Of a stretch of 64,000 bases of DNA, positions 25,539-64,000 are shown piece by piece. The notes beneath the pieces were generated by a model that saw only the letters and a list, made by a program, of their open reading frames with translations, did no database searches and was not told where the DNA came from. Each line of letters starts with the position of its first letter. The stretch's first letter is position 1. Made by a program: the position numbers and the translations under genes. Location: NCBI GenBank assembly GCA_027492915.1, contig JAPUDW010000327.1, positions 1-64,000 of the forward strand. Reading direction: 5' to 3'. This DNA comes from Bacteroidota bacterium. GTDB taxonomy: Bacteria; Chloroflexota; Anaerolineae; Aggregatilineales; Phototrophicaceae.

Positions 25539-26009
25539 ATGTCAGCCGATTTCAAATCACATGTGCTGCTGCGGGACGAAAAAGGTTTTCTGGGCATCCC
25601 TTTTAAGCGACTGCTGCTGGCGGCCGTCGGTGGAGGTTTGGTCTACACCATCGTCCGCTTCGCCTCGGCTGGCGCTTCTATACCGGTTGGGGCAGTCTGC
25701 GGTATTACGCTGCTAGTCATGACCGGAATGCGCGGTGGTCTGCCCTTGTGGCAGCGGTTGCTGTATCAAGTGCGCGGGGTGCTGTTACTGGCTGCTGCTT
25801 ATGAACCCACAAGCAGCTTGGGCAAGCTGGCTACCGCATTGGAACTGCCGTCGGGCCTCGCCCAGTTGGATGGGACGGTGGTTTTTGCCTCGCTCCAGTC
25901 CGATGTCGGAATTGATTTGCGGGAGTGGACATTGTTCACGTCGCCAGTTGAGGCGGATCATGACGATGGCCTACGCTTTGTCAGCGATCCGCTGGAGGAA
26001 GTGTCATGA
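25539..26009 (+). CDS. VirB3/PrgI-like membrane protein
   Basis: 156 residues. It has a short soluble N terminus, then two hydrophobic segments (LLLAAVGGGLVYTIVRFA and IPVGAVCGITLLVMTGMRGG), then a basic segment (LWQRLLYQVRG) and a soluble acidic C-terminal part. The gene lies 11 bp after the pilin-like gene, and its stop overlaps the virB4 start (ATGA). In single-membrane conjugation systems a PrgI/VirB3-type protein of this shape precedes virB4 and anchors it to the membrane. The family is inferred from topology and order. Confidence 0.6.
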   Translation: MSADFKSHVLLRDEKGFLGIPFKRLLLAAVGGGLVYTIVRFASAGASIPVGAVCGITLLVMTGMRGGLPLWQRLLYQVRGVLLLAAAYEPTSSLGKLATALELPSGLAQLDGTVVFASLQSDVGIDLREWTLFTSPVEADHDDGLRFVSDPLEEVS

Positions 26010-29873: not shown

Positions 29874-29971
29874 GGGATTGTCGAAATCTCCTGATGAACG
29901 TGCCAAACAAAAACGCCCTGCACGCCGCGAGTGGGTACGGCAAGAGCAGAGCGCATGGGTTACAATGCGAT

Positions 29972-40600: not shown

Positions 40601-43600
40601 GATGACCTCCCGCTGGGCGTAAGCTGCACCATCGTGTACACGGCGACCCTCGCCAACACCGTCACCAATGGGATCACGTTGACCAATACCGCTACAATGG
40701 GTTACTCCTCGCTGGATGACGGCACGCCGGATGCCAACGACCCGAACGAGCGCGTCTACACTGACACCGACAATGCGGTCATTGATACCAATGTCGCGCC
40801 GCTGTCCTTCACCAAATCGGTGATTGACACCTCGGAGGCTTACACCGGCGCAGGTCAACACGGGGCGACACTGACTGACCTGACCATCGGTGAGACCGTG
40901 ACCTATGAACTGCGCGCCCGCCTGCAAGAAGGCACGACGCCCATCACCATCACCGATACACTGCCAACCGGCCTGAGTTTCGTCAGCACCCAACTGGCAC
41001 CGACCAACGGCGCGAATGTCACCATCACGGGCGGCTTCCCCGCACCGACCCTCGCCGGTCAGGTGATGACGCTGACGCTGGGTAACGTCGTCAACGCCGC
41101 CGATAACCTGGTCAATGCCGACGATGATCTGGTCATCTGGGTAGTCGCCCGTGCCAGCAACGTGGCTGCCAACAACGGCACCACCGGCCTTGATAAGATC
41201 AACACTGCCCGACTCAATTGGGGCGGCGGCACCCTCACCGATACCGAGACAGTCGAAATCATTGAGCCGAACCTCAATATCGACAAGAGCGCCAACCCGA
41301 CCACTGGCCTGAACGCGGGTGATGTCATCACCTACACGCTGGTCATCAACCATACCGCTACTTCGACCGCCGATGCCTTCGACCTGCGGATCACCGATGT
41401 GATCCCGGCGGGCATCACCTACGGTTCGGTGACGGCTGCGGCCTCCACCTGCGATGAACGAGCGGGTTGGACTGCTGACATCAGCAGCTTGCCGGGTACC
41501 GTTGTCTATCGCTTTGACGACCTCCCGTTGGCAGCCAGCTGTACCATCACCTACACGGCGACTCTGGCCAACACCGTCACCAACGGCATCACACTGACCA
41601 ACACCGCCAGCCTGCGTTATTCCTCGCTGGATGACGGCACGCCGGATGCCAACGACCCGAACGAGCGCGTCTACAACGATAGTGACACTGCGGTCATTGA
41701 TACTAATGTGGCACCGCTGTCCTTCACCAAAACGGTGGTGGATAGCTCTCAAACCTACACCGGCGTGGGTCAACACGGGGCGGCCTTGACCGACCTGACC
41801 ATCGGCGAGACCGTCACCTATGAACTGCGCGCCCGCCTGCAAGAAGGCACAACGCCCATCATCATCACCGATACGCTCCCGGCTGGTCTGGTCTTCATCA
41901 GTACCCAACTGGCACCGACCAACGGCGCGAATGTCACCATCACCAACGGCTTCCCGACCCCAACTCTTGCCGGTCAGGTGATGACGCTGACGCTGGGCAA
42001 TGTGGTCAATGCCGGGGATAACACCGTCAACGCCGACGATGATCTGGTGATCTGGGTGGTTGCACGGGTCGCCAATGTGGCGGGCAATATCGGCACCACC
42101 GGCCTTGACAAGATCAACACCGCCACCCTCGACTGGGGCCCCGGCACCCTCACGGATACCGAGACGGTCGAAATCGTTGAACCCCTGTTGGACATCACCA
42201 AGAACGCCGCGCCGAACATCGGCCTGGACGCCGGGGACATCGTGACCTACACCTTCTCGGTGACGCATACGGGGGCTTCAACAGCAGATGCCCAGGATGT
42301 CAGCATCAACGATCTGCTGCCTGCCCATATGACCTACGTGGGCAATGTCGCCACCGTGACTGGGCCTGCGCCGACCGTCACCAATAGCTCACCCAACATC
42401 ATCTTTAGTTGGGCGAACCTGCCGCTGGGTGCCACCTATACCTTCACATTCGAGGTCTCTATTGACCCGACCGTTGGGCCAGCCGCCAGCCTGACCAACA
42501 CGGCGACGCTCGGTTGGTCAACGCTGCCCGGCGCTAGCCCTAACGAACGCACCTATACCGATACCGCCAGTGCGGTCGTCACCACCATCCCGCCGACCAT
42601 GGAGAAGTCCATCTTCACCACGTCCCTGACCGAGACGGGTTCAGCCCAGCATGACCCGACCATCGTGGATGTGAACATCGGTGAGACTGTCACCTACTAC
42701 ATGACCATCACCATGCCGGAAGGCACCGCGCCGCTCACCCTGACCGATAACCTGCCAAACGTGATGACGGTCGTCAGTTCGCGGGTCTTGAGCCTGGGTG
42801 CCAATATCACCACCACCGGCCTTGGCGTTGGTCAGCCGGGCGTGGTCAGCGATGCGAACTTCGCCGATGGCTTGCCTGACCGGGTAGTCTTCAACCTCGG
42901 CACGGTTCTGAATGCGCCGGATGGCATCGACAACGCGGAAGACCAGATCGTCCTCGAAGTGGTGGCGCGGGTTGATGAAAACGCAGCCAACCGCAATGGC
43001 GATCAGTTGACCAATACCGCCACGCTGAACTACGGTACTGGAACTGTTACCGATACCGAAGTCGTGGAGGTCGTAGAACCGGAACTCAACATCGACAAGT
43101 CGGCGCTGGTCGTCACCGGGCGTCCCGGCGACATCATCGAATACACCATCGTGGTCGATCATGTGGGTGGTTCCAACAGCCCGGCCTACGACATCGTGAT
43201 TACCGACCCGATGTTGCCCAATCTCAACTTGATCGTCGGCAGTGTCACCGCTACCCCTGGCAATGTCGTCCTCGGCAATAACGCCGGTGATACCACGCTG
43301 CGGGTGGAACTGGGTGTCCTCAACCCCGGTGATAGCATCACCATCACCTATCAGGCGCAGATTGACGCGTCGATCACCCCGCCGGTGACGTTCGTCAACA
43401 CCGCCACCCTCAACTACGATAGTGCTGCCGGGCCGGGTGGCCGCCCTGGTACCGACGATGACACTCATACCATCCGCGTCAATGATGATGTCTATCGCTA
43501 CTCGAAAACAGTGGTGGATACATCCCTGATCGACACCGGCGATAGCCAGTTGACCGGCGCACCGGATGTGACCATCGGCGAGCGCGTGACTTTCCATATC

Positions 43601-45997
43601 GAAGCCTATCTGCCGGAAGGGACAACCACCAACTTCACCATCACCGATAACTTGCCGGACGGCATGATCGTCGTCAGCAGCCGGGTAGTGAGCATCGGCA
43701 GCAACCTCGGCGTCTCCGCGCTGGCAGTGGGCGATCCCGGCACCGCCTCCAACAGTAACTACACGGCGGATGCCTTTGATGACCGGGTGGTCTTCAGCTT
43801 TGGCGATACCACCAATGTCATTGACGGCATCGACGATGACCGTGACGTGGTGGTCGTCGAAGTGGAAGCCCGCGTATACGATAACCAGTTGCTCAATCGT
43901 GGCGGCACCACCGTTACCAACGAGGCCATCATTGACTACGGCCCCAACCGCCGCCGTGCGGAAGCCGATGTGGACATCGTTGAGCCAAACATCAACCTGA
44001 CCAAGACCTTTAACCCCCGTATTGAAGGGCGCGGGCATAAGCTGTTCATGACTCTTGAACTGGTCAACAGCGGTAGCTCCATCGCTTACAAGGTATCCCT
44101 GCGCGACCCGCTCAACCCCGGCCTGTGCCTGGATACAATCAGCGTGGACGCCTCTGGAGCGCCGGGGACGACCTTCACCAATACCTCTACCAGCGGCTGT
44201 GGTGGGATCGTGCAGATCGACTTCACTGACCTGGGCATTGGCGAGCGCATCGTCGTCACGGTTGAACTGACTATCGACGCCGCGCTGGAACCAATCCCGC
44301 AGGACATCCCCAATACGGCGACCGTAACTTACCAATCCATCCCTGTCGGTCACCCGGATGAAAGCGAAGCCCGTCAGTATAATGACAATGCTACCGACAT
44401 CCTGACGGTAGATGAACCAACCATCGAAGTGACCAAAGTCGGCAACCCGCAATCGGTGCGGGCTGGTGGATTGCTCACCTACACTGTCACCGTCACCAAC
44501 ACTGGCGAACCACCCATCGATGCCTTCCAGGTGGTCATCACCGATGTGCTGCCGCCTGAACTCACCTATGTCTCGGCTACACCGGCGAAGGGGGTTTGTA
44601 CCGCCAACGGTCAAACCATCACCTGTATCATCGACAAGCTGCTGCGTGGGGAAACCACCACCATCCTGATCGAGACTCGGGTCGCGGCTGGCCTGGCGGC
44701 TGGTACCCGGATCATCAATCTGCTGGGGCTGACCACCCTGGAGGGTGTGTCGGTCGAAGCTGATGCCCTGAATGTGGTGGCCTCGGAAGCCGTCTGTAGC
44801 ATCGGCTGCCCGGATGCCCAGATTTACCACAGCGACCAGACCGGCGACTGGGAAATCTTCCGGCTGGTGGGCGGCACCACACTTGAGACTGATGCTGATC
44901 AAAACCTAACCCAGAACCCTGCCGATGATGTCGAACCGAGTCAATCTCCGGATGGCAACTGGATGGCCTTCGCCAGCAACCGGGACGGCAATTGGGAAAT
45001 CTATGTCACCCCGACAACGGTGATTGATGGTCAGCCCACCCGCACCCGCCGCGTCACCACCAACACTATCGCGGTCGATACCGACCCGGTCTGGGGGCCG
45101 ACCGATCATCTGGTGTACGAATCAACCCGCGACGGCAACTGGGAGCTATACCTGCTCGATTTGCGGACAGGCATCGAAACCCGCCTGACCAATAACCCAG
45201 CCGATGACCTGAATGCGTTCTGGTCGCCGGATGGCTCGCGCCTGGTCTTCCAGAGCAACCGTAGTGGTCGCTGGCAACTGTATGAACTCAACTTGCAGAC
45301 GGCAACGCTGCGCCTGCTCAGTGACGGCAGTGGCGATGATATGGATGGAGCCTACGCCAACAATGGGGAACGGATTGTCTTCCGCTCGGTCAACCCGGAT
45401 GGCACCATCATCACGTTGATGAATGCGGATGGCAGCGGACGCACTCCCATCAGCGAACGCAGCAGCCGTGCGGCTAACGCGGTTTGGTCGCCGGATGACA
45501 GCCTGATTGTGTATCAATCGGACACGGATGGCGACCTGGACATCTACGTCTACGGTGTTGCAACGGGTCAAGTCCGTAAGCTGACCGCCAATGATGTGGA
45601 TGACTATGCCCCGACCTGGTTATGCGGTAGCTTGCAGGTGATCTTCACCTCGGATGAACCCGGCAACCCGGATATCTTTCAGGCGAATGCCCTGCCGCTG
45701 ACGGCCCCGGCCTTAGTGGTGATGGACGACACCACCCAACTGACGATTGACTCGAACCGCGACCTGTATCCGCAGGGCGCACCCTCGGAGGAGAACGCCA
45801 GCCTGGAAGGGATACTGCCGGATACTGTTTCGGCTGAACCTGGTCATACACAGATTTTGAATCTCGATATGGCGGTCACGCCTGAAGACCAGACGCTAAA
45901 TCGGGATGAAGTGTGGGAAGCGATCACAGGTTGTGCAGAGATAGATCTCAATTCATCGCCACCACCTTATGCGCTGTCGCTGCTGCCTACGCGTTAA
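31667..45997 (+). CDS. Giant secreted protein: PKD repeats, DUF11 repeats, PD40 beta-propeller
   Basis: 4776 residues. The signal peptide (TTLLLVLSIFLLSGTVLA) is followed by a Pro/Thr/Glu-rich linker. About eight PKD domains (residues 110-760, with WSWDFGDGTSASG and variants) come next, several with paired cysteines. Then a spacer domain and more than a dozen DUF11-type beta domains (pattern N-x-x-K-x-A-x-P, D-x-x-TYT-x-x-x-N, L-x-N-x-A). Near the C terminus are TolB/PD40-like propeller blades (NWMAFASNRDGNWEIYV, SPDGSRLVFQSNRSG). No sorting motif or terminal membrane span was seen, so how it is held is unknown. It probably acts in adhesion or as an S-layer-like fibre. It is cargo of the inner element, flanked by gene fragments. 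Codon use is GC-richer than its borders. Confidence 0.9.
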   Translation: MIRHGSITTLLLVLSIFLLSGTVLAEVRFVVVQEPISTPGVIPVPVPTEEPAAPTEEIPAPTEEAPTEEVTETPAPTEEATLTSSPEPTTETPSPSETPVIIRVAMNASPSSGNGPLTVIFSDASTGSGINDWSWDFGDGTSASGQGPHSHTYSTPGTYTASLTVRGASGSATASQQIVVFSPGSTVEANFTYQQTSALEVCFSNSSTGAITSSVWSFGDGSNSAETSPCHTYAALGQYTVSLSVTGEGGQTSTASRTVTLLPQTEPPNAAFTPDRTTIAPGGTIRFSDQSTGIIRSWAWDFADGITSNERHPSHQYSTIGTYIVTLTVSGPGGFDQVTATITVAPETVLTCSFNAPSRVFAGEQVTLRNTSRVSPGSFSGFTWFVNGETAATTTDFTTSFGEAGSYTVRLVGLTLDGQTCQSERTVTVLPSNGVIADFTGTRNVIVGAEICLRDRSRGTILSRSWDFGDGTSSAETDPCHSFGSSGRYSVKLTVNGEGGATDSRARTVNVYDAPTLTASANPVNGVAPLSVDFSATGTNISNYEWVFPDGSRAFSANASFLFDQPGEYTVTVSGSGPVGSLSSSLTVQVRAARDVRAAFGASAWNGIAPVEICFTDHSEGEEITSWAWNFGDGATSSQSNPCHTFTSAGQYTVTLQVSNSDGMSASASNTVRIYDPGSGSASLRITSVNELTVCFGSTLDAGMNIVRWEFGDGSTSTEAEPCHPYLADGTYAVKLIVTDISGTERALTASISVKEDEAEEVTATPPPTETPEINVFDPALSKLGYLPAGSIGLTGEELHWLTTVTNNGNAAGANVVIVDNVRPELRIDAVQVASGSSYTINGQQVRVTIPTLLPGERQDFTIVTTVLTSPRSGTINNTVQINETGDSATATIVIPGMMMIQAAPPTPNGPIPLINGVPELTDFAGEEFCITPNFTNAGSNEGYGPYITLVRDANLSLNSIDYLGVNLMASPFLVSSGFLPANDPIEGRAIPGIAGQQWITVRLPIGSLESTSPAIPIRLCMQSAPLAAFGVPLPITIFPGYEFGDTPTGANGPISNLNDVGGMDNAGSFTPILVTFEKGNSLPESEVIPSCYPAPPVGAPGQPGPACAVPPGVQWPYEYFLDIELAAGQTLTTNSYTDVLDPAFEFYPYTFPVTTVANAVISSGTCTPTGITATFNSNPITALPALAPPGGGTLQVDIASIVNPSAATTCTLRLSYRGFINDILSETAAPTTYAATNNASFGYNHVSGPQPILTDTDVVDVRNLEIQKSASPTTVVPGDVVTYTLSFQLSEYIGIQALSVTDIIPDGIDYNVDSATVTVPGLGSAPITGANQSISYGADTGTLVFNVTGARPGPYSAAGTVSITYTGTVRQTYRAGGSLTGFVSANDNLNNTITANFTTTGGQTFNDESSASVTVVPNSLTKELVSTPVDSAAGFVPGEPVTFRLTLRVPSGDTRNLVIEDNFPLPVFQVQDGDFGIEARTITLPDPIGRSAPFDVPNTDGYCSSYDDPNPTFPAYTRACGLRFVYGTDGTNLPAGSSVTVTRVGNTVRLNVDAPVETNLTEERRIVVELTAGIIDQPFNDGLFLSNRSLARYTNTLGSVVTLNADDYVDVAAPDVRICKGISATTNASSVAAAGAACQVTGAPNNNLTNVDAADVLTYTITAQNVGSARAYGVVISDNVTTIPQLTGCTLVSVRDGAGAALAFTGTFPTLTLTNPLPGDGSAGVSTAQATAVVTYQCTVASNVVPLTAPIVNQASVVFAAFSDILPGGPHLNPPTVPFAPRTDVANFVSAAPNITKARTPATATIGDLITYTLAVDIPGGTMNNVSIVDTLDSGLAFVDCTSVSVTSGTLTSSLGAINTANFCNDPTNPVIGAGGGAATWNFGNLTDTGSNNTDLDTITITYTAVVLNTAANVRGQDRNNSAELRWANPAGGQFTDNASAPDTRLVEPTLLVDKTVAPATNLDANDLVTFTIDIRHAAGSDATAHNIALSDVIPSTLTYVPSSLVFVAGTGRVAPVTLSEAAGTITATWTSLTTTQTSRLQFQARLVNTVQPDQPITNTAGITWTSLPGSPTNTTYNPLGVERTGDPTGPGGAANTYTATDPATLTVASPTATKTVVSTSLADTGNGSDTDPDLTIGEQVTYQITITFREGVTNNAVIRDDLPTGAAVLGYISSRIISIGSNLSFSSATPTVGLAGTATDTNADTILNRIDWNLSNVTNTPDNVANAADQIVVEIVARVINVADNSGLSPTQDLNVVNTGRIRYTNFAGATVAQNGTTTVDIVEPRLIINKSASVPQADAGDTVTYTVTVQNTGTALAYNVVITDPMLPELELLTGTVTTSAGAVTLGNTAGDTTIRIDAVSLAINGTITITYQARLRPSVFPGQNLVNTASQTSNSLPDGTGRTGNSSDPATVLVLLPQFNKDIVSTSEGATFPGVGTTDQYTAAPDLAIGETITYQMTIVVPEGTSNILRLVDTLPSIGAGDPGTLDHISSRVVSIGANISNSALAVGASGSVVGQVITFNFVGGTPISNVADGLSNAADQMVVEVVARVSTIAANANGDLLTNRARLTYDGNNTLDASAAADVVEPNLNIDKSANPTTGLNAGDVITYTLVINHTATSTADAFDLRITDVIPAGITYGSVTTAASTCDERAGWSADVSSLPGTAVYRFDDLPLGVSCTIVYTATLANTVTNGITLTNTASLRYSSLDDGTPDINDPNERVYNDSDPVSVTTNLAPLSFTKTVVDSSETYTGAGQHGATLTDLTIGETVTYELRARLQEGTVPLTITDTLPAGLTFVSATLNLPAPTNITIPGGFPAPTLAGQVMTLTLGNVVNAADNLVNADDDLVIWVVARASNVAANNGTTGLDKINTARLNWGGGTLTDTETVEIIEPNLNIDKSANPTTGLNAGDVITYTLVINHTATSTADAFDLRITDVIPAGITYGSVTTAASTCDERAGWSADVSSLPGTVIYRFDDLPLGVSCTIVYTATLANTVTNGITLTNTATMGYSSLDDGTPDANDPNERVYTDTDNAVIDTNVAPLSFTKSVIDTSEAYTGAGQHGATLTDLTIGETVTYELRARLQEGTTPITITDTLPTGLSFVSTQLAPTNGANVTITGGFPAPTLAGQVMTLTLGNVVNAADNLVNADDDLVIWVVARASNVAANNGTTGLDKINTARLNWGGGTLTDTETVEIIEPNLNIDKSANPTTGLNAGDVITYTLVINHTATSTADAFDLRITDVIPAGITYGSVTAAASTCDERAGWTADISSLPGTVVYRFDDLPLAASCTITYTATLANTVTNGITLTNTASLRYSSLDDGTPDANDPNERVYNDSDTAVIDTNVAPLSFTKTVVDSSQTYTGVGQHGAALTDLTIGETVTYELRARLQEGTTPIIITDTLPAGLVFISTQLAPTNGANVTITNGFPTPTLAGQVMTLTLGNVVNAGDNTVNADDDLVIWVVARVANVAGNIGTTGLDKINTATLDWGPGTLTDTETVEIVEPLLDITKNAAPNIGLDAGDIVTYTFSVTHTGASTADAQDVSINDLLPAHMTYVGNVATVTGPAPTVTNSSPNIIFSWANLPLGATYTFTFEVSIDPTVGPAASLTNTATLGWSTLPGASPNERTYTDTASAVVTTIPPTMEKSIFTTSLTETGSAQHDPTIVDVNIGETVTYYMTITMPEGTAPLTLTDNLPNVMTVVSSRVLSLGANITTTGLGVGQPGVVSDANFADGLPDRVVFNLGTVLNAPDGIDNAEDQIVLEVVARVDENAANRNGDQLTNTATLNYGTGTVTDTEVVEVVEPELNIDKSALVVTGRPGDIIEYTIVVDHVGGSNSPAYDIVITDPMLPNLNLIVGSVTATPGNVVLGNNAGDTTLRVELGVLNPGDSITITYQAQIDASITPPVTFVNTATLNYDSAAGPGGRPGTDDDTHTIRVNDDVYRYSKTVVDTSLIDTGDSQLTGAPDVTIGERVTFHIEAYLPEGTTTNFTITDNLPDGMIVVSSRVVSIGSNLGVSALAVGDPGTASNSNYTADAFDDRVVFSFGDTTNVIDGIDDDRDVVVVEVEARVYDNQLLNRGGTTVTNEAIIDYGPNRRRAEADVDIVEPNINLTKTFNPRIEGRGHKLFMTLELVNSGSSIAYKVSLRDPLNPGLCLDTISVDASGAPGTTFTNTSTSGCGGIVQIDFTDLGIGERIVVTVELTIDAALEPIPQDIPNTATVTYQSIPVGHPDESEARQYNDNATDILTVDEPTIEVTKVGNPQSVRAGGLLTYTVTVTNTGEPPIDAFQVVITDVLPPELTYVSATPAKGVCTANGQTITCIIDKLLRGETTTILIETRVAAGLAAGTRIINLLGLTTLEGVSVEADALNVVASEAVCSIGCPDAQIYHSDQTGDWEIFRLVGGTTLETDADQNLTQNPADDVEPSQSPDGNWMAFASNRDGNWEIYVTPTTVIDGQPTRTRRVTTNTIAVDTDPVWGPTDHLVYESTRDGNWELYLLDLRTGIETRLTNNPADDLNAFWSPDGSRLVFQSNRSGRWQLYELNLQTATLRLLSDGSGDDMDGAYANNGERIVFRSVNPDGTIITLMNADGSGRTPISERSSRAANAVWSPDDSLIVYQSDTDGDLDIYVYGVATGQVRKLTANDVDDYAPTWLCGSLQVIFTSDEPGNPDIFQANALPLTAPALVVMDDTTQLTIDSNRDLYPQGAPSEENASLEGILPDTVSAEPGHTQILNLDMAVTPEDQTLNRDEVWEAITGCAEIDLNSSPPPYALSLLPTR
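39440..42184 (+). repeat. Three tandem 915-bp repeats inside the giant gene
   Basis: Units start at 39440, 40355 and 41270 (each 915 bp, 305 codons) with the words NLNIDKSANPTTGLNAGDVI. Each unit holds two DUF11-type domains. Units 1 and 2 match almost exactly in their first 200 bp and units 2 and 3 share a long identical block around 41040-41340. The end of unit 3 is more diverged. The pattern points to recent unequal crossing-over or gene conversion. Confidence 0.9.
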
Positions 45998-49655: not shown

Positions 49656-50654
49656 TTACAAGTCGATTTCCATCGCTGGCTGGTCCGGTTCCAAATCCTC
49701 CAGCAAGGCCGAACGTTCCGCTGGTGTCATCTTCCCCAGCACCCCGGCCAACTGCTTCAGCTGCTCCAGGTCACCTTTCATCCCAATTCCCAGAACTTGT
49801 GCCAGTTGCTCGGCCTCTTCGTGAGTTAGACCACTCAACAGCGGACGGAACTGAACGGTGACAGACTCCTCGTCGTCATCGGTCGGCGTGGCATAAGGTC
49901 GATAGAAGCCCAGGCTGGTAGTCGTTTCGCTGGTGCGGCGCAAGCCACACCAGACCGGCCACTCTCGGTCATCCTTATCAATCGTCCATCCATGCGGGTC
50001 TCCGTCGGTGATCGCTATCTGCTGCTCACGGATGTCTGCTAACTGGTCATGGCGTGTTTCCCATTCCGGCCCGACATAACGATCCATGAGCGCGACCATC
50101 TGGCCTTCTGTCGCCCGATGCAGCATCTCGATGTGGTCGACCTTGCGATTGCGGCTGAAGAAGAGCGGCACCCGGCAGCTATGTTCCTCACTGTAGACCG
50201 TGCCGGGCAGGACAGTGTGAGTATGCGGGTTGTGCAATCCCGGTGCCTCTAGATCGTTGGTCAAACGATGATGCAGCACTGTTGAAAACTCGATACCTGT
50301 GTCCAGTCCCCGGCGGTCGAAGAAGTCCTCGATGACTCCCTCGGTCAGTTCCCACATAAACGCCTCCCGATCTTCCGGCGCGACCATCGCTATCAGGTCA
50401 GGATTAGGATTTGTGACCAGGCTGAAGGCCAGCACATGCTCACTTTTCAGGGCGTCGCAGCGAGCGGCAATCTCGGCGACCGATCCGCCCATGCCGTGAT
50501 CCCGCCAACGATCCTTCCCGGCTGCGTGGCGAGCAGCCTCATCCCGGCTCTCCCTGTACGTCAGGTAGTGCAAAAGATTCTTCGACTGCTTTGCGCCATC
50601 AGCGGACGGCTTCTTGTATTGCACATTGGCGACACACATCTGCTTGTGATCCAT
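49656..50654 (-). CDS. Relaxase-like mobilisation protein of the inner element
   Basis: 332 residues. The N-terminal LLHYLTYRES and the later GLHNPHTHTVLPGT (His141, His144, His146) form the three-histidine metal centre pattern of single-strand DNA relaxases. The candidate catalytic Tyr is among Tyr30 and Tyr33. The C-terminal part is acidic and helical (LEQLKQLAGVLGKMTPAE). It is clearly related to the gene at the right edge of the window (63358-64000), which shares the LVTNPNPDLIAMV / VISPAPDLMALV and THTVLPGT / THVVLPGT blocks. AGGAGGG lies 12 bases before ATG 50654. It nicks oriT to start transfer; the MOB class is not assigned. Confidence 0.8.
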   Translation of the reverse strand: MDHKQMCVANVQYKKPSADGAKQSKNLLHYLTYRESRDEAARHAAGKDRWRDHGMGGSVAEIAARCDALKSEHVLAFSLVTNPNPDLIAMVAPEDREAFMWELTEGVIEDFFDRRGLDTGIEFSTVLHHRLTNDLEAPGLHNPHTHTVLPGTVYSEEHSCRVPLFFSRNRKVDHIEMLHRATEGQMVALMDRYVGPEWETRHDQLADIREQQIAITDGDPHGWTIDKDDREWPVWCGLRRTSETTTSLGFYRPYATPTDDDEESVTVQFRPLLSGLTHEEAEQLAQVLGIGMKGDLEQLKQLAGVLGKMTPAERSALLEDLEPDQPAMEIDL

Positions 50655-53166: not shown

Positions 53167-53312
53167 TCAAGAACGGGGTTTGGCTCGTTTACGACCTCGG
53201 TTTTCGGTTTCCGATGGGGACTTGGGGAGATACCGCTCGACGGCGCGGGCTACCTCGGCCAGATCGAACGGCGCGGCTGCCGCAACTTGTTGGTCAGTTA
53301 CAACTCCACCAA
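53167..53312 (-). pseudogene. Displaced 3' end of the inner serine recombinase gene
   Basis: Read on the minus strand from the junction, in the recombinase frame, it gives VGGVVTDQQVAAAA, PFDLAEVARAVERYLPK and SPSETENRGRKRAKPRS, then TGA (53169-53167). The helix and Lys/Arg-rich tail look like a natural protein end, unlike the antisense virB4 now attached. Joined to codon 27869-27867 the recombinase would have about 717 residues from ATG 29873. Confidence 0.65.
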
Positions 53313-53330
53313 CAGATGAGCGTCATGCTG
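53296..53330. other. Right junction of the inner element (attR candidate)
   Basis: Element sequence AGTTACAACTCCACCAACAG ends at 53315, and virB4 codons resume with ATGAGCGTCATG at 53316. CAG (53313-53315) is shared with the left junction. AGTTA is the partner of ATAACT at the left end. Confidence 0.65.
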
Positions 53331-53567
53331 GAGGGCAAAGCCCGCCTAGTATTTGAGAATAGTCCCATCCGGGTGATCTTCTCGCAGCGGCAGGGCATGA
53401 ATGTCTTCCACGAAGATGCCGCCTTCCAGCATCTCAACCAGCAGCACCGCGACATCATCGCCGCCTTACCACGCTTTCACTACGTCCTCGATATCCAAGA
53501 TGAAGGCTTGTGGTACCTCTACAACCGTCCCACCGTCGGCGAACTCGCCCGTTTCAGGAGTACCTAA
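53316..53567 (+). pseudogene. VirB4-like ATPase, 3' part, separated by the inner element
   Basis: 83 codons in the virB4 frame. MSVMLEGKARLVFENSPIRV matches the family block after the post-Walker-B Gln (L-x-x-x-EAR-x-x-x-ENS). The end, LPRFHYVLDIQDEGLWYLYN, is the usual VirB4 closing segment. An upstream frame (from 53214) is element DNA, not virB4. It is followed after three bases by the next outer-operon gene, showing that this piece is in its ancestral place. Confidence 0.85.
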
Positions 53568-53570
53568 ACC

Positions 53571-53759
53571 ATGTCCAAAAAACAATCCAATGCTCCGCCG
53601 TGGCAGGCGATTGAAGAACAAGCCTACCACGCTTACCGCGAGTGGCCGATCTGGCTCGTCCTGCGCGAACGCGAACTGGCCGCGCATCTCAGCTTACACA
53701 AATCCCCTGAAAAAGCAGAACCGACAGCCAAGCCGGTTCGGAAGGAGAAACCGTCATGA
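53571..53759 (+). CDS. Small hypothetical protein of the outer operon
   Basis: 62 residues, hydrophilic, with an aromatic helix (AYHAYREWPIWLVLRERELA) and a Lys/Pro-rich tail. It starts three bases after the virB4 stop and overlaps the topA start (ATGA), so it is part of the outer transfer operon. No family is recognised. Confidence 0.65.
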   Translation: MSKKQSNAPPWQAIEEQAYHAYREWPIWLVLRERELAAHLSLHKSPEKAEPTAKPVRKEKPS

Positions 53760-55498
53760 AACTCATGATCGTCGAATCGCCGGCCAAATCCAAAAAGATT
53801 GCAGGGTACTTAGGCGCAGGCTGGCGCGTGGAAGCCTGCCTCGGCCACATCTGTGACCTGCCCGAAGCCGAACTGGGGGTGGAAGTCACAGCGGATTTCC
53901 GCCCGACGTATGTAGTACTTCCCGGCAAGAGCAATCTGGTCAAGAAACTGCTCAAAGCCGTTCAGGAGGCCCAAGCGGTTTATGTGGCGACTGATCCCGA
54001 CCGGGAAGGCGAAGCTATCGCCTGGCACATCCTCAAGTTGGCGAATATGCCGAATGACAAGCCGGTTTATCGGGTGATGTTCCACGCCATTACTCAAGAG
54101 GCGGTGCTGGAAGCGGTCGCCCATCCCCGCGCGTTGGACGTTCATCTGGTTGAAGCCCAGCAGACGCGGCGCATTGTGGATCGCTTAGTTGGTTATCTGG
54201 CTTCCCCACTAGCCGCCAAGGCACTGGATGGCAAATTCTCTGCCGGACGGGTGCAGAGTGTCTGCCTGCGGCTGGTTGTTGAACGGGAGCGCGAGATTGA
54301 AGGCTTCACCTCCGAAAGTTACTGGACACTGGCACTGAAGTTGGCTGCTGATGCAGAAGAGTTCACGGCTAAGCTGTACCAGATCAAAGGTGCGGACAGC
54401 ACCTTTAAGATGCGGGAACCGCTGGACAAACTGGTGGCACTCCTCAGTCACGCGCAGCTCTGGGTAGGGAATACGGGACGCACGGTTAAAGCACGGCATC
54501 CACTACCGCCCTTCACTACGGCATCCCTTCAGCAAGCGGCCTCCAAAGGCTTGGGACTATCGCCTGAAAAGACGATGGCACTGGCCCAGACTCTTTACGA
54601 ACAAGGGTTGATTACCTACATGCGCACCGATGGTGTATCCGTTGCGCCGGAAGCCCAGACGGCAGCGCGTGACACTATCACCCGTGAGCATGGCGCAGAC
54701 TACATGCCGCCTGAAGCCCCCACCTACACCGTGAAAACGGCCAATGCACAGGAAGCGCACGAAGCCATCCGCCCAACCGACATCACTCATCTCCCACAGG
54801 ATGCCAAAGGCGATGGTGCCGCCCTCTACGGCCTGATCTGGAAGCGCTTCCTCGCCTCCCAGATGGCTCCTGCCCTCTACACCCTCACAGGTGCGGTCAT
54901 TTATGCCGGCAAAGTACCGGGGCAGCCGTTTCCGATGGAGTTCCGGGTGCAGGGACGTTCACTGCTGTTTGACGGCTTTCTCAAAGTCTATCAAGAACCG
55001 GCGGATGAGGGCGAAGAATCTGAGATTGATCGGATACTGCCCATGCTAACTGAAAACCAGACACTCAAGCTGGTCGTGCCGCAGGTAGAGGAACACCAGA
55101 CCCGCGCACCCACCCGTTACACCGAAGCAGGACTGGTGCAAGCACTGGAACAGCGCGGGATTGGACGACCCTCAACCTATGCCAGCATGGTCAAAACGGT
55201 CAAGGACAAGGGCTATGTCAAGCTCAGTCAAAAGCGGTTGGTTCCCACTGAAGATGGGCTGCGGTTGTGTGATTTTCTGATGACCCATTTTGCTGGAGTG
55301 CTGGCCTATGACTACACCGCTCAACTTGAAGAGCAGCTCGACCAGATTGCAGCGGGTGATACCACCCGCTTAGAGGTGCTGCGCGGGTTCTGGAAGGACT
55401 TTCAACCACAGGTGATCCAAGCGACCGAGTATGCCTTAGCGCAGCTCAAGGGACGCGCTGCTCCCAAACCGCTGATGCTGCATCCGGCACAGGAGTAA
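53756..55498 (+). CDS. topA: DNA topoisomerase I (type IA)
   Basis: 580 residues; relaxes negative supercoils by cutting one strand. The Toprim domain has LMIVESPAKSKKIAGYL and VYVATDPDREGEAIAWH with its acidic triad. The central domain has KFSAGRVQSVCLRLVVERER. The active-site Tyr is Tyr288 in LITYMRTDGV. IRPTD and GIGRPSTYASMVKTV complete the family blocks. The C-terminal zinc ribbons of chromosomal TopA are absent, so it is a shorter, element-type enzyme (like TopB/TraE). It overlaps the preceding small gene and lies 4 bp before the next one. It may prepare the DNA for transfer or replication. Confidence 0.95.
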   Translation: MKLMIVESPAKSKKIAGYLGAGWRVEACLGHICDLPEAELGVEVTADFRPTYVVLPGKSNLVKKLLKAVQEAQAVYVATDPDREGEAIAWHILKLANMPNDKPVYRVMFHAITQEAVLEAVAHPRALDVHLVEAQQTRRIVDRLVGYLASPLAAKALDGKFSAGRVQSVCLRLVVEREREIEGFTSESYWTLALKLAADAEEFTAKLYQIKGADSTFKMREPLDKLVALLSHAQLWVGNTGRTVKARHPLPPFTTASLQQAASKGLGLSPEKTMALAQTLYEQGLITYMRTDGVSVAPEAQTAARDTITREHGADYMPPEAPTYTVKTANAQEAHEAIRPTDITHLPQDAKGDGAALYGLIWKRFLASQMAPALYTLTGAVIYAGKVPGQPFPMEFRVQGRSLLFDGFLKVYQEPADEGEESEIDRILPMLTENQTLKLVVPQVEEHQTRAPTRYTEAGLVQALEQRGIGRPSTYASMVKTVKDKGYVKLSQKRLVPTEDGLRLCDFLMTHFAGVLAYDYTAQLEEQLDQIAAGDTTRLEVLRGFWKDFQPQVIQATEYALAQLKGRAAPKPLMLHPAQE

Positions 55499-55502
55499 GC
55501 CG

Positions 55503-56660
55503 ATGAGCGCCAATGACTTCATGCCAGAGCCGCCCCCGACTGACTATGACGACTGGGGACCGCCCGACGAACTGTATTCGATGCCTGAGGATCCCTTCCC
55601 GGACGATCTCTTTACCGGCGCGCCCAACGACTTCGACCATGTGGCGCTCAATGATCCCTGGCTGCCGGACGATGACCATTTCGTGCCCAGAGATATGGAG
55701 GAATTGCTCGATGTGCCACCCTCGCAGGATGGGTTGCAGGGCTTTGAACGACCCGAACCATTAGATGAAAACTGGGGTTGGCATGACGCCCGCTTGATTG
55801 GTGTCGAGCGCGAGACCGAGGACAACACCCGCTATGAGATTGGCGCGATGGATGTGTACGCCAACCTCAACACGGGCGATCTAGGCGGGAGCTACCTGCC
55901 GATTGCCTCTTTTGAGGATGTCGATGTGGCGGCTGTTTACTACCACACACTCAGCGACCAGATTCACGATCAGGGATTGGCGGCCTATCAAGTTCCTGAG
56001 TTTGCTGAAAAGCAAGCCTTGGCTATGAACGCCGAACCCGAGTCTTGGCGCGGGGCAGCACCCGAAGAATACGCTGCCTACGAACACCTGCGCGATCTGG
56101 ACGACGGCAGTATTGCTGGACGAGATGACCCGCCGGACTACATGATGGATCCGCTGCTTCAGACCGCCATTGAATTGGGTGGAGTCGCTCCAGTTGCCGA
56201 ACAATATCTGCCGGTTGAAGATCAGTCCGCCTTTCAAGCCTTGAATGCGATTGGTATCCAAGCGGAAGGGTTTGACCCGACCAAAGACCCGCCGCCTTTT
56301 TATGATGCTGAAACCGGGACAGCCTACTGGATCGGGGTCTTCCAACCAGACAAAGATGACCACGAGAACTGCGTCACCAGTATTTTGTCTCTGGGGCGGA
56401 ATCCTGAAACCGGAGAGATGGAAGCCCAGCTCGCGCCGTGTGTGCCCGGTGAGTGGGACAAAGCCTATACCGCCGCCGAGTACTTGATTGAGGTCGCCCA
56501 AAAGGGTGGAATTGACCACTGTTTCGATGCGGCTGAAGGCATGGCATTGGCGACCGATCAGCGCGAGTTGTGGGACAAGGAACGCGGTGTGGAGATCGAA
56601 CCGAATGTGACCCGCGACATCGCCGATTACACCCGCGACAACTGGGAGATAGACCTATGA
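55503..56660 (+). CDS. Acidic hypothetical protein with transfer-region repeat module
   Basis: 385 residues, strongly acidic; the first 80 residues are mostly Asp, Glu and Pro (EPPPTDYDDWGPPDELYSM). Two similar modules follow. Each has a beta-type block (ARLIGVERETEDNTRYEIGA and TAYWIGVFQPDKDDHENCVT) and a helical block (TLSDQIHDQGLAAYQVPEFA and AEYLIEVAQKGGIDHCFDAA). The helical block resembles those repeated in the protein at 56874. Such acidic multi-module proteins between topA and virD4 could be DNA mimics (antirestriction) or protein injected with DNA; this is inference. ATGA overlap with the next gene. Confidence 0.7.
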   Translation: MSANDFMPEPPPTDYDDWGPPDELYSMPEDPFPDDLFTGAPNDFDHVALNDPWLPDDDHFVPRDMEELLDVPPSQDGLQGFERPEPLDENWGWHDARLIGVERETEDNTRYEIGAMDVYANLNTGDLGGSYLPIASFEDVDVAAVYYHTLSDQIHDQGLAAYQVPEFAEKQALAMNAEPESWRGAAPEEYAAYEHLRDLDDGSIAGRDDPPDYMMDPLLQTAIELGGVAPVAEQYLPVEDQSAFQALNAIGIQAEGFDPTKDPPPFYDAETGTAYWIGVFQPDKDDHENCVTSILSLGRNPETGEMEAQLAPCVPGEWDKAYTAAEYLIEVAQKGGIDHCFDAAEGMALATDQRELWDKERGVEIEPNVTRDIADYTRDNWEIDL

Positions 56661-56887
56661 GCGAGTCCAAATCGTCAAGCTTCAGTGTCCGTCTCAGTCC
56701 GGAAGAAGATCAGCGTTTACACCAGTTGGCGGACGAGTGGCAGGTTAAGCGTTCGATGGCCGTGCGACTCCTCATCCAACGCACCATTCAGTCGCCCACT
56801 GCCTTTAGACCTGTGGGTGTCTTTACGCCCGTCGGTACACAGCAACTTCAGCCAATGGTGATTGGAGGCGATCATGAACGCCCATGA
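56657..56887 (+). CDS. Ribbon-helix-helix DNA-binding protein
   Basis: 76 residues. SSFSVRLSPEEDQRLHQLAD is the strand and first helix, and QVKRSMAVRLLIQRTI is the second helix of an RHH fold. A Pro-containing tail (FRPVGVFTPVGTQQLQPMVI) follows. It starts inside the stop of the previous gene and its end overlaps the next start by 14 bp. It could be a relaxosome accessory protein of the outer element or an operon autorepressor. Confidence 0.75.
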   Translation: MSESKSSSFSVRLSPEEDQRLHQLADEWQVKRSMAVRLLIQRTIQSPTAFRPVGVFTPVGTQQLQPMVIGGDHERP

Positions 56888-58760
56888 ACCGCTGTCAAGT
56901 CGTCAGCGCTCTGACCTCTTGATGCAGCACTTAGACGCGGTGGCTCAAAATCCGGATTATTTGAATACGCCTGCTCGATCTGTATTGCAGAATGAAAACA
57001 ATTCAATGGAGCAGAACGTCCCAGCGACCCGGGCGGATTATTACTTTGGTTATGGTATTGGCCCGAACAATATTCCGTCACTGGAAGCCGTGAAAACATG
57101 GTTGGATGGCAGCGAACGGCGCTTCGATACCTTTACCATTGCTGAATATGGCATGTGGGACGAAGCACGAAGCGATGAACACGAATTACAGAATGTCCTA
57201 AAAACACAGGGACTAGAAATGGCACTCAATCAAGCTGAACGCACGGCAGTAGCCGGTGGCTATCTTGACCCTAATCGCGACGACCCGCGGGTGTTTTTTG
57301 AGAACAATGCGCCTCTTGATCCCTTTATCACCGAACGTGAACGAGTCGTGGAGCAAATGATGCCGCAAGAGGAACCCTTACAAACGGTAGACTACAGTAT
57401 CGATGCGATTGCCGCCAACGGTGCGTCGCGCCTGGATGTCACGAAATCGTGGGGAGAAGAAGATCATGAGTATGAACGGCTGCTCATTCCTCAACCCGAT
57501 TGGGAAACCGCACGAGCCAATGCTGAGACGGCTCATGACCTACTGGACAAAGGCGATTTGCAAGCAGCCATGATGCTGGTGGAATTAGCGGGTGTGGAAG
57601 CACGTGTGATCAATCCGGATCGGGATGATCCACGCCTGTTCACTCAGGGACCACCCGATCCATTTACCACCATCCGCGAATATGAACTGGGTATCTCTGA
57701 GATGGATACCGAACCGGATACACCGATGATGGTTCGTGAACAGACTAATGTATCGGCCAGCGACCGCGAGGCAAATGCCGCACTAGAAGGATTGGTGTGG
57801 TTTGAGACGACTTTCGAGCAGAGCCCAATCGAATTGCTCGAACCCATAAATGAGAACGTGAACTATGCCGTGGTGCTACGGGGCGCTGATCCGTGGACAG
57901 AAGAACTGGCCGTCGAGAAGTATTGGAAAGAACCCGGTGGCTATTTAGGGATGCAGTCCGTCACCCTCAACACTTACGATTCGGATGATGAGCAAAGACA
58001 TGAACAGGCGCAGCAAGCGCGGGATGGGCTGCTCGAAGTCTATGACGAGCGCGGATTGAAAGCCATGATGCATAAGGCCGAACTCACGGCTATGCAGAAC
58101 GGCTGGTTGGACGGGAATCGGGCCGACCCGCGTTTGTTCACACAAGGCCCTCCTGACCGATTCGAAACATTGGCGCAGCATTTGGAAGGAGAGATCAATC
58201 CCTACTGGAATACCGACGGTGAGAAGATTCAAGATCTTTTGCCAGAGGCGGTAGCTGAAAAGCCCTATTGGCGATTGGACACGCTGCCCGTGAATAACCC
58301 GGAAGGTGAATCTTTGGGTCAGGCTTTACATATGGTGGTCTATCCCGGTATAGAGAGCAATTCGGATATGAGTGATATTCCGGCGATACCACAAGAAGAA
58401 CCATTTCGAATGCTGGAGATGGCGCACTTTGAAACAACAGCCGCATCTGATAAGTTTGGCAAGGAATTTAACGGCTATCTGATGCCGGGAGTGCTCGATG
58501 GACCGGAACTAGCGGAAGAAGTGGCACGGCTGGAAGGGCTGTCGGTGGAATGGAAGACACTGGAAGGTGACGACCTGAAAGCCTACCAAAATGATGAATT
58601 GACACTCACCCACGATTCGGCAGATTGGCATCCCTATAACCCGAATGCCGAGCACGATGCCCGCATCGAGGCCGAGGGACTCCCTTCGAACCCAGTTCAA
58701 CAACTTGACAAGCCGGACGAAGCTGGGATTGCCCCCGCTACACCGGAATTGGATTTCTAG
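56874..58760 (+). CDS. Large acidic repeat protein of the transfer region
   Basis: 628 residues, acidic, no membrane segments. A module is repeated three times: a beta part with DAIAANGASRLDVTKSWGEE or similar, then a helix of the type LKTQGLEMALNQAERTAVAG, then the signature NRDDPRVFF, DRDDPRLFTQGPPDPF or NRADPRLFTQGPPDRF. A fourth, shortened module ends the protein. The same helix type occurs in the 55503 protein, so both come from one family. GGAGGC lies before ATG 56874. No known domain was recognised. Its place before virD4 suggests a role linked to DNA transfer or protection in the recipient, which is inference. Confidence 0.72.
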   Translation: MNAHEPLSSRQRSDLLMQHLDAVAQNPDYLNTPARSVLQNENNSMEQNVPATRADYYFGYGIGPNNIPSLEAVKTWLDGSERRFDTFTIAEYGMWDEARSDEHELQNVLKTQGLEMALNQAERTAVAGGYLDPNRDDPRVFFENNAPLDPFITERERVVEQMMPQEEPLQTVDYSIDAIAANGASRLDVTKSWGEEDHEYERLLIPQPDWETARANAETAHDLLDKGDLQAAMMLVELAGVEARVINPDRDDPRLFTQGPPDPFTTIREYELGISEMDTEPDTPMMVREQTNVSASDREANAALEGLVWFETTFEQSPIELLEPINENVNYAVVLRGADPWTEELAVEKYWKEPGGYLGMQSVTLNTYDSDDEQRHEQAQQARDGLLEVYDERGLKAMMHKAELTAMQNGWLDGNRADPRLFTQGPPDRFETLAQHLEGEINPYWNTDGEKIQDLLPEAVAEKPYWRLDTLPVNNPEGESLGQALHMVVYPGIESNSDMSDIPAIPQEEPFRMLEMAHFETTAASDKFGKEFNGYLMPGVLDGPELAEEVARLEGLSVEWKTLEGDDLKAYQNDELTLTHDSADWHPYNPNAEHDARIEAEGLPSNPVQQLDKPDEAGIAPATPELDF

Positions 58761-58838: not shown

Positions 58839-60890
58839 ATGTTCTATTGGCTTTTCACGGAGGGGCGCGCACTGCTTGGCGGGTGTCTCGCTCCCCTGCT
58901 GTGTTTGACACTGCTCTTACCGATCATCGTGAGTGCGTTGCTCGGAGCGGGTATCCAACGCACCAGCGACTCACAGCTTGGAATGGGATGGAAACGTGGC
59001 GCACAACTGCTGACCTATTGCGTTGTTTTAATGGGCGTTTCAACGATCTATCTGACGCTGTCGGACAAGATGGCAGTGCAACTTATACGTGGACGACAGA
59101 CGACGAGTAGTTTTGTACAGCTCCTGAATGGCGCACCACCCAATGTGAATGCAATGCGCTTGTTTCTATTTGGCATAATGCTCGTCATGCTTTGGTTTTT
59201 CGTGACCATCGGACTGCATAGCGGCATTAAGAATGGCGGTTGGCTGCGAGAAAGGGTGGATCGTCTCCGCAATCCGCAGGTCAAACGCGGTGCTCTGGGT
59301 TCATCGCATTTCTGTACGATGCGCGAGTACAAGCGGTTCCGTCGCGAAGATGCGGAAGGTCTAACACTGCTTGGCGCATTCTGGGGCGAGGATAAACGCC
59401 GCCTTGACCTTGGCATGGGGCGGTTCTCATTCAGTGGTGAAGATGTGGCGCGGGGTATCCTGACTCTCGGTGGCCCCGGTTCTGGTAAAACTCAGGGTAT
59501 CATCCTGCCCGCTATTGCCGACCGGATGCTGGCAGGTCACTCCCTCATTGTGGCTGACCCGCAGGGTGAAATTACGGGTCATATCCTCAAGTATGCAGCG
59601 GTGACACGTCATCTAGTGGTTGTCCATGATCCGACCAGTGCCATCGGGCCGTGTTACAATTTGGCCGAAGGCATCGATAATGTATCCGATGCCCGCGCCA
59701 TTGCCGATGTGCTGGTACCCTCGGCGGCAGGAGACAACCGCTTCTGGACAGACAGCGCAGCGGCATTGCTGGCTGCTTGTCTGATTCGCTTCCCCAATCT
59801 CGGTGAAATCTACAATGCCATGAATGATCTCAAGGGATTAGCACAGAAGCTCGCTTCCAAGAAAGACGATGCCGCACTGTTGGCAAACAGCTTTATTGCC
59901 TCAGTGGGTTCAGATGGTAAAGTTGCATCCAATGTGGTGGCGACTTTGGCAACGGCGCTCACCGGTTGGGCTTCCACTGATGTCCGTGCTAATACCTCTG
60001 CATCGGACTTCGATACCGAACTGGTGGTGGAGCAACCTACCGTTGTTGTACTAACCTGTCCTGGACGGATGCGGGCGGTGTATGCCTCTTACCTCGGCGC
60101 GACACTTCGTAAGCTGATGCTCGACCTCGACACCATCGGTGAGCGCAACAAGGGGCCACTTCCCGTTCCCGTCGCTGTAATCCTTGATGAATTTCCAACC
60201 CTTGGCAAGTTGGATAGTCTGGTCGCTGATGTAAACCTCGTCCGCAAACGCCGTATCTCGATCATGATTGGTGCCCAGACCAAGGGGCAGTTTCACATGA
60301 TTTACGGCAATGAGGGTACGCAGGCGTTATTCACGGGTCTGGCGACACAAGTCATTTACGGCGGATGCGACGCGGATACGGCCGAGTTCTACAGCAAAGC
60401 CAGTGGAACAGCGACCACCGATGCGAATACCGACGATCCCAATAGCCATCTCCGGCAGCGTCCGCTGTTGACGGTGGATGAAGTTATTACGCCACAGGTA
60501 GGTAACTGTACGATTTTCGCTCGTTATGTGGAGGTAGGTTTTGCTACGCAGATTGTTTTGAATGCTCGCCTGACACGCTTCTATGAGCGCGACGACTGGA
60601 AACAGCGGCTCAATGCCACTAAAGATATACAACCGCTGCTATTGGAGCGTGGCATCTCACTGGATTTGAACCAAGAAGAATCCCTTGTTTCACCAAAACC
60701 AGAGCTTATACCTGTCGAAACGGCCCCTACATCCAATCCAACGCTTGAATTAGCAGCCTCAGTATTGATGGCAAAAGTTGCTGCTGAAACTAAGAACCAG
60801 AGCAAAGGTAATGTCCAAATAGTGAGTTCAACAGAAATGCGTCAAAATCGTCAAAAACGATTGCTAGTCTCCAAAGAAGTGATCTCATGA
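58839..60890 (+). CDS. VirD4/TraG-type coupling protein
   Basis: 683 residues. Inner-membrane ATPase that brings the relaxase-DNA complex to the secretion channel. Three or four N-terminal membrane segments (PLLCLTLLLPIIVSALLGAG, LLTYCVVLMGVSTIYLTLSD, LFLFGIMLVMLWFFVTIGLH) precede the P-loop LGGPGSGKTQG (about residue 211). Walker B is VAVILDEFPTLGKLD (about 445), then ISIMIGAQTKGQ and the C-terminal sensor region. The ending is hydrophilic. A 78-bp gap separates it from the acidic protein and ATGA overlaps with the HU-like gene. It belongs to the outer element; the inner one has none. Confidence 0.93.
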   Translation: MFYWLFTEGRALLGGCLAPLLCLTLLLPIIVSALLGAGIQRTSDSQLGMGWKRGAQLLTYCVVLMGVSTIYLTLSDKMAVQLIRGRQTTSSFVQLLNGAPPNVNAMRLFLFGIMLVMLWFFVTIGLHSGIKNGGWLRERVDRLRNPQVKRGALGSSHFCTMREYKRFRREDAEGLTLLGAFWGEDKRRLDLGMGRFSFSGEDVARGILTLGGPGSGKTQGIILPAIADRMLAGHSLIVADPQGEITGHILKYAAVTRHLVVVHDPTSAIGPCYNLAEGIDNVSDARAIADVLVPSAAGDNRFWTDSAAALLAACLIRFPNLGEIYNAMNDLKGLAQKLASKKDDAALLANSFIASVGSDGKVASNVVATLATALTGWASTDVRANTSASDFDTELVVEQPTVVVLTCPGRMRAVYASYLGATLRKLMLDLDTIGERNKGPLPVPVAVILDEFPTLGKLDSLVADVNLVRKRRISIMIGAQTKGQFHMIYGNEGTQALFTGLATQVIYGGCDADTAEFYSKASGTATTDANTDDPNSHLRQRPLLTVDEVITPQVGNCTIFARYVEVGFATQIVLNARLTRFYERDDWKQRLNATKDIQPLLLERGISLDLNQEESLVSPKPELIPVETAPTSNPTLELAASVLMAKVAAETKNQSKGNVQIVSSTEMRQNRQKRLLVSKEVIS

Positions 60891-63357: not shown

Positions 63358-64000
63358 TCAGCGGCGTGGAAACCATGCCTCGAAATCATTTGCATCGGGC
63401 ATTTCAGGTTCAACCTCAGGTTCTTCTTGACGCAGTTGCATCCACTCAGGTCCCACAATGCGATCCAGTGCCTCGCTGAAATGACGACTGGCGATCTCAC
63501 GGAATAATGCATCATGTCCGCGCTCTTTGTTATTATAAAAAGCCTCGCGGTCAAAACCTGGCAGGGGTGCAGTACCCGGTAGTACAACATGCGTATGTAG
63601 CTGCTGCATCGATTCACCGCTATCTTCAGAGGCTGTCTCACGATCATGGAGAATAAAACTGTATTCCGGGATCGTGAAGCCGCGTTCTAGATAATAATCC
63701 TCGACAATGTGTTCGGTAAGATCGCATACCAAATTGCGCCGCTGCTCCTCTGGCACAAGCGCCATTAAGTCAGGTGCAGGCGAAATCACCCACGTCCAAG
63801 CCAGCACATGCTTACTTTGAAGTGAATCGCTGTTCTTCATGATGTCGCGCCAGTGAAGTCCCATACCACGATCCTGCCAGCGTTCGTAATCACGATTCAT
63901 AGCAAGCTGATTTTGTACTTTGTCCCGATATTGCAGGTATTTCAGTGTGGAGCTCAGGCCTTTGCGTCCTGTGCCATGACCTTTACGTTTAGTTCCTTTA
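63358..64000 (-). CDS. Relaxase-like mobilisation protein of the outer element (partial)
   Basis: The frame is open from the right edge (KGTKRKGHGTGRKGLSSTLK, then YLQYRDKVQNQLAMNRDYER) to the stop at 63358, so the ATG at 63900 is internal and the start is outside the window. KYLQYRD corresponds to HYLTYRE in the inner relaxase, and QQLHTHVVLPGTAPLPGFDR carries the histidine centre. VIEDF/HIVEDYYLERG blocks also match. The C-terminal end is shorter than in the paralogue (no VWCGLRR region). It is followed by only 48 bp before the TetR gene end. It likely works with VirD4 at 58839. Confidence 0.75.
   Translation of the reverse strand, partial: KGTKRKGHGTGRKGLSSTLKYLQYRDKVQNQLAMNRDYERWQDRGMGLHWRDIMKNSDSLQSKHVLAWTWVISPAPDLMALVPEEQRRNLVCDLTEHIVEDYYLERGFTIPEYSFILHDRETASEDSGESMQQLHTHVVLPGTAPLPGFDREAFYNNKERGHDALFREIASRHFSEALDRIVGPEWMQLRQEEPEVEPEMPDANDFEAWFPRR

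Follow-up and report, generated by a model that had tools for sequence, protein, structure and literature searches.

Two long acidic proteins, designated A and B, are encoded among conjugation genes in a 64,000-nucleotide stretch of DNA (positions 1 to 64,000 of contig JAPUDW010000327.1, hereafter the window). The contig is 177.7 kb long, and the nearest relatives of its genome are Anaerolineae (Chloroflexota) assemblies. The gene order is topA-A-RHH-B-virD4-HU (coordinates in Table 1; the start of B was taken as the likeliest ATG, at 56874), and most loci keep topA-A-(RHH)-B beside virD4, HU, and a gene for a relaxase-like protein. Both proteins consist of modules and carry a short acidic-hydrophobic tail at the C terminus, a tail that relaxase-like proteins share. 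The original prediction for this DNA, made from its letters, placed the two proteins between topA and virD4, and the open reading frame (ORF) coordinates and the Pfam- and NCBIfam-identified flanking genes agree with that placement; the picture is amended in that a small RHH-like gene (56657-56887) separates A from B. This small gene gave weak RHH/CopG and Arc-like matches (Pfam and PHROGs) and is missing from the loci of several relatives.

Both proteins are strongly acidic (isoelectric points [pI] in Table 1), in line with the acidic charge given in the original prediction. The net charge is −68 for A (−0.18 per residue) and −78 for B (−0.12 per residue), compared with −0.09 to +0.04 charges per residue for the other window ORFs of more than 250 residues; single modules range from −0.09 to −0.16 per residue. 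A and B are real genes under purifying selection, with ratios of nonsynonymous to synonymous substitution (dN/dS) of 0.07 to 0.11 for A and 0.10 to 0.16 for B and of 0.04 to 0.09 for virD4 and topA. Neither protein had a significant match in Pfam, PHROGs, NCBIfam, PADLOC, or PDB sequences, as expected from the earlier view that they hold no recognized domain.

Modular architecture of A and B

A beta-plus-helix module common to A and B had been proposed, and the predicted topology is consistent with it. In AlphaFold models built from shallow alignments (mean pLDDT [predicted local distance difference test] of 58 for B and 49 for A), βββαα arrangements were predicted at residues 55 to 128, 173 to 242, and 329 to 408 of B, in parts mostly at pLDDT of about 70 to 90, and at residues 91 to 175 and 273 to 350 of A, at pLDDT of about 50 to 73. 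The last module of B, the divergent B4, was modeled as βββα at residues 464 to 532, with pLDDT under 50. Modules B1, B2, and B3 matched one another pairwise in HHalign (probability, 97 to 99%; E values, 2e-11 to 7e-18); judged by these profiles, the repeat is not due to chance and the modules are clearly homologous. Profile comparison also matched B1 to BN1, the first module of longer relatives, at 94% and, weakly, to A2 at 58%; the A2-B1 match and the occurrence of A-type and B-type modules within one protein in some relatives agree with a module common to both proteins. A second amendment concerns the signature PRLFTQGPPDPF, predicted to be repeated in the second protein: it is confined to B, where it occurs in three copies (LDPNRDDPRVFFENNAPLDPF, INPDRDDPRLFTQGPPDPF, and LDGNRADPRLFTQGPPDRF), the one in B1 being degenerate and the others lying in B2 and B3; A has none.

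Module models applied to the B proteins of distant relatives detected two to seven modules, varying in number and order, with up to seven in relatives such as those at loci L009 and L053. A-type modules occur inside these B-like proteins, and B4 is always the last module. Searches of known families with the B4 module gave nothing convincing, and the distant B4 proteins had no Pfam match except DUF488 and a weak PAS match. Foldseek and VIA-align gave no trustworthy structural match, the best Z scores (4.3 for B and 3.8 for A) lying within the range of chance arrangements; these fold searches covered parts of each protein, and some regions of the models were barely compared. Rows for dsRBD, Pur-alpha, and AP2-domain folds were weak and tied with unrelated rows, and these folds were set aside. 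A match to a known enzyme or structural domain, which the original prediction had named as the finding that would speak against it, was not seen in these searches, an absence that is weak because the models are poor.

The C-terminal tail and the proteins that carry it

A terminates in NWEIDL and B in TPELDF, and the tail of both follows the pattern [DE]-Φ-[DE]-Φ-COOH. Among 53 unique B4 proteins, acid and hydrophobic residues alternate over the last four positions (acid-hydrophobic-acid-hydrophobic; class entropy, 0.68 to 0.83), while the preceding 26 positions have entropies of 1.06 to 1.86 and the linker after B4 varies freely; 42 of the 53 match Φ-[DE]-[LFIMWR]. The strict pattern was found in 16 of the 22 unique tails of A and 18 of the 20 of B, compared with 4 of 375 other genes, and 3 of those 4 proved to be module proteins of the A/B family. 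In 100 kb of the window's contig, the tail occurs only in A, in B, and in a relaxase-like protein.

This third protein is called relaxase-like because it matches no Pfam or NCBIfam relaxase family. In an alignment of 27 relatives, H128, H144, and H146 are invariant (27/27), Y30 is present in 26, and Y33 is present in 24; a three-His metal site and N-terminal tyrosines are the hallmarks of HUH relaxases. The relatives within the order end in MEIDL, PEFEL, PTIDF, SFDL, PSLDL, PSMDL, PEIDF, PEIDL, or WEIEW, and two relaxase-like relatives outside the order, one of them short, lack the tail. Genome G381 has tails on its relaxase-like proteins without detectable A, B4, or VirD4 of the window type, so the tail cannot be explained simply as joining the relaxase to A or B of its own element. 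We also asked whether G381 could identify the receptor; it lacks this virD4 and the element-type topA, as expected of a mobilizable element, and so is not decisive. A second, shorter relaxase-like family, belonging to the outer element (window positions 63358 to 64035, minus strand, and relatives), has a conserved tail of its own, D-L-D-x-W-F-[PG]-R, after an acidic linker.

The tail-bearing relaxase-like gene lies within a 25-kb insertion (about 27868 to 53310) that divides a virB4-like ATPase gene into two pieces (26006 to 27889 and 53301 to 53558), the split falling at one codon (..IDQ / ..MSV). A search with PF19044 found no VirB4, and the split gene of the window was recognized through the 704-residue protein of a relative, which has a weak PF19044 match. 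The insertion contains a large serine recombinase gene at its left end (27753 to 29906), a RepB-primase/DUF927 gene, the relaxase-like gene, and ParM. The virB4-like gene is split at about the same codon in G083 and G333 and is intact in G326, G252, G270, and L011; the insertion looks like a mobilizable element that targets virB4 of the conjugative element. Given that the relaxase-like gene resides inside this insertion, the tail is common to proteins from two elements, which would use the same transfer machine. The insertion also carries what is apparently its cargo, a 4,776-residue protein with PKD, DUF11, and beta-propeller-like repeats (31667 to 45997, plus strand).

The constant B4-plus-tail end is joined to varying N-terminal parts, DUF488 enzymes included. 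In some relatives, the gene after that for the B-like protein encodes DUF488 (E value, 3.7e-7) followed by two B4 modules and a tail ending ..VFDLEI or ..VFDLDL; two further cases are a shorter DUF488-B4 protein (E value, 1.2e-9) and a DUF488 protein that has B4 matches. The DUF488 part of the L053 fusion matches PADLOC candidate defense models, and in some DUF488-B4 proteins the tails are degenerate.

Table 1. Features of the window's transfer locus and fusions at related loci (window positions unless a locus or residue range is given; aa, residues)
Feature	Position	Strand	Description
topA	53756-55498	+	Opens the conserved topA-A-(RHH)-B group; Pfam, NCBIfam; synteny in relatives
Protein A	55503-56660	+	385 aa, pI 4.05; two βββαα modules (predicted) and C-terminal tail; ORF, model, charge, dN/dS
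N-terminal stretch of A	aa 1-88		Acidic, Pro-rich, low pLDDT
Module A1	55764-56039	+	aa 88-179; module profile; predicted βββαα
Module A2	56286-56582	+	aa 262-360; module profile; predicted βββαα
C-terminal tail of A	56643-56657	+	..WEIDL-COOH; kept in relatives
Small RHH-like gene	56657-56887	+	76 aa; overlaps A and B; ORF
Protein B	56874-58760	+	628 aa, pI 4.25; B1 to B4, variable linker, tail; ORF, model, repeats
Module B1	57033-57326	+	aa 54-151; degenerate signature NRDDPRVFFENNAPLDPF
Module B2	57387-57665	+	aa 172-264; signature DRDDPRLFTQGPPDPF
Module B3	57822-58163	+	aa 317-430; signature NRADPRLFTQGPPDRF
Module B4	58257-58643	+	aa 462-590; near-constant C-terminal module of the family
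C-terminal tail of B	58743-58757	+	..PELDF-COOH; position-wise conservation, 53 B4 proteins
VirD4-like coupling protein	58839-60890	+	Pfam, NCBIfam; putative tail receptor
Relaxase-like protein	49656-50654	−	332 aa; ..MEIDL-COOH (tail codons 49659-49673); inside the insertion in the virB4-like gene
DUF488-B4 fusions beside B-like genes	L053 9285-11609; L144 6630-8417; L153 3162-4406		One or two B4 modules

Distribution and neighboring genes

Of 396 genomes of the class, the same 11 contain both A and B, and these 11 all belong to a single order; B4 alone was found in 35 of the 154 genomes of that order; in a phylum-wide draw of 400 genomes, A was found in the window's own genome only. A and B had no matches in the plasmid or viral-contig collections searched, and B had none in the phage records searched. 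By these searches the module family is restricted to a single order of the Anaerolineae. Gene calls in relatives were greedy ORF picks. Some copies of the locus are decaying: A has a frameshift in L007 and L062, and one of the three copies in G326 has interruptions in topA, A, and the virB4-like gene (L060, C1:4326001-4345000).

Just past the window on the same contig (C327, L076), hsdM, hsdS, and hsdR make up a complete type I restriction-modification system (64300 to 73328). At 74867 to 82575 lies a gene for a single-stranded DNA-binding protein (SSB) that ends in GDIPF, with PRTRC-like genes (ThiF and prokaryotic E2 family D) after it.

Possible roles of A and B in transfer

We favor, tentatively and at somewhat less than an even chance, a reading from sequence and analogy in which the tail docks A, B, and the relaxase on the transfer apparatus, most likely on VirD4, and A and B travel with the strand into the recipient. 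This is proposed because coupling proteins recognize C-terminal signals and conjugation machines deliver proteins with DNA. The coupling protein reads C-terminal signals (PMC6509941, PMC3297438), such signals are common to relaxases and other substrates (PMC6509941), and ArdC and TraC1 are transferred along with DNA (PMC5512222). In the F-type pED208 system, ParA, ParB, SSB, PsiB, and PsiA are delivered together with DNA via the coupling protein, a precedent for a conjugation machine that delivers several element-encoded proteins (PMC8406263). Besides these precedents, the reading is supported by the linkage of the locus, the conserved tail and its presence on relaxase-like proteins, and the constant B4-plus-tail end on varying N termini. 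Transport with the DNA strand, one of the two roles first suggested for A and B, thereby gains indirect support through the tail shared with relaxase-like proteins and the constant B4-plus-tail end, and delivery would be the step that follows docking.

In such a scheme, A and B would be accessory proteins of a Chloroflexota conjugation system, built of variable, bead-like βββαα modules. The tail, together with B4 in the case of B, would dock on one transfer component, most probably the VirD4-like coupling protein, and docking would make A and B cosubstrates of the relaxase-bound strand. The variable modules may then act in the recipient, in protection, antidefense, or establishment, and the DUF488 enzymes may be alternative cargo on the same B4-plus-tail end. 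It is also possible that Anaerolineae conjugation systems use B4 plus tail as a new type IV secretion signal of acidic character, carried by relaxases and by modular proteins and DUF488 enzymes that are injected with the DNA; we hold this further proposal more loosely than docking and delivery.

Several observations weigh against docking and delivery. Most known C-terminal type IV secretion signals are hydrophobic or carry positive charge (PMC6509941, PMC3297438), whereas the A/B tail is acidic. A lacks B4, and a docking tail does not require export. The window's relaxase-like protein, having matched none of the Pfam and NCBIfam relaxase models, is assigned by its residues only, and the second relaxase-like family, which ends ..DLDAWFPR, is the main exception to the shared tail. 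The Fisher values for the tail, about 1e-20 and below, ignore relatedness and are not to be taken literally.

The main rival uses the same docking in a donor-side scaffold: A and B would stay in the donor, and the tails would hold A, B, and the relaxase on a single component of the transfer machine (the candidates are VirD4, TopA, the VirB4-like ATPase, and an RHH accessory protein), so that a complex of relaxosome and topoisomerase is assembled and the relaxase and strand alone are exported. The same linkage and tail data fit this arrangement, as does an operon that holds topA and often an RHH gene, and we consider it a real possibility, if a rather doubtful one. However, several loci keep the tails although they have no RHH gene between A and B, the DUF488 enzymes on the B4-plus-tail end look more like cargo than scaffold, and a fixed structural part would not usually show such free reshuffling of module number.

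ArdA blocks restriction enzymes, and A and B resemble ArdA-type DNA mimics in being acidic, strongly negative, and encoded by a conjugative element; their modules could imitate DNA and block restriction or other DNA-binding defense enzymes, with the tail incidental or used for delivery. Strong negative charge across all modules fits such DNA mimicry, the other role first suggested, as does the position in a conjugative element; the type I restriction-modification system on the contig shows that such enzymes are around, and it neither proves nor excludes mimicry. Acidity is nevertheless the sole basis of the idea, and it is moderate in single modules; A and B have no sequence match to ArdA or to any antirestriction family model, are much longer than ArdA and modular, and have a conserved C-terminal tail. 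No row of the structure comparisons rose above Z 4.3 with these low-confidence models. The tail-sharing relaxase-like proteins are not comparably acidic (−0.07 charges per residue for the window's), and nothing ties the modules to a target; we consider mimicry unlikely. We judge it quite improbable that the tail is instead a general motif unrelated to transfer, such as an SSB-type C-terminal peptide, a sliding-clamp motif, or a degradation tag. SSB C termini are also acidic with a terminal hydrophobic residue, and there is a loose resemblance between the clamp motif QL[SD]LF and tails such as ELDF or DLDL. However, most SSB proteins in these genomes have DIPF or EIPF at the C terminus, with proline where the A/B tail has an acid, and the ending [DE]-[DEG]-I-P-F is absent from the A, B, and relaxase-like tails, for which reason mimicry of the SSB tail was set aside; the conserved Gln of clamp motifs is absent, and the tail is confined to three element proteins in 100 kb.

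Docking and delivery can be compared with known classes of transferred proteins. BID-domain substrates of VirB/VirD4 systems include the Bartonella Beps and the toxins and relaxases of alphaproteobacteria (PMC6509941). Like them, the A/B family joins a C-terminal domain and a short charged tail to differing N-terminal parts, has its genes next to those of a VirD4-type system, and has a putative C-terminal signal in common with other proteins, here relaxase-like ones. In contrast to the positively charged BID tail, the A/B tail is the acidic [DE]-Φ-[DE]-Φ; B4 is predicted to be βββα and has no BID match (Pfam; B and distant B4 proteins), and what the relaxase-like proteins have in common with B is the tail but not B4. 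Translocation of A and B is a proposed property. Polyvalent proteins, which are proposed to enter the recipient with DNA, likewise have a variable multimodule architecture, linkage to type IV secretion genes, and sometimes enzymatic domains (PMC5512222). Of the two to fifteen domains expected of that class, A has two modules and B has four, and topA-A-B lies beside virD4, HU, relaxase-like, and virB4-like genes. However, the catalogued polyvalent domains (ArdC-N, MPTase, YodL, LPD families, and others) were not detected in A or B, and the DUF488 of some relatives is not mentioned in that paper (PMC5512222); unlike those catalogued domains, the A/B modules form a new, order-restricted family. 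The pED208 proteins differ from A and B in being known maintenance or SOS-suppressing proteins, and the part of that report drawn on here describes no shared C-terminal tail (PMC8406263). A and B would work like polyvalent proteins and BID substrates but belong to neither class, because polyvalent domains and BID were not detected and the tail is acidic rather than basic.

A literature search found no description of the A/B module family and no study of Chloroflexota conjugation proteins, and transfer signals outside well-studied phyla are hardly known. If the proposed docking and delivery are correct, a short C-terminal tag common to relaxases and accessory proteins would allow the substrates of these machines to be recognized in genome sequences directly, and it would name candidate proteins, the DUF488 fusions included, that could enter recipients with the DNA.

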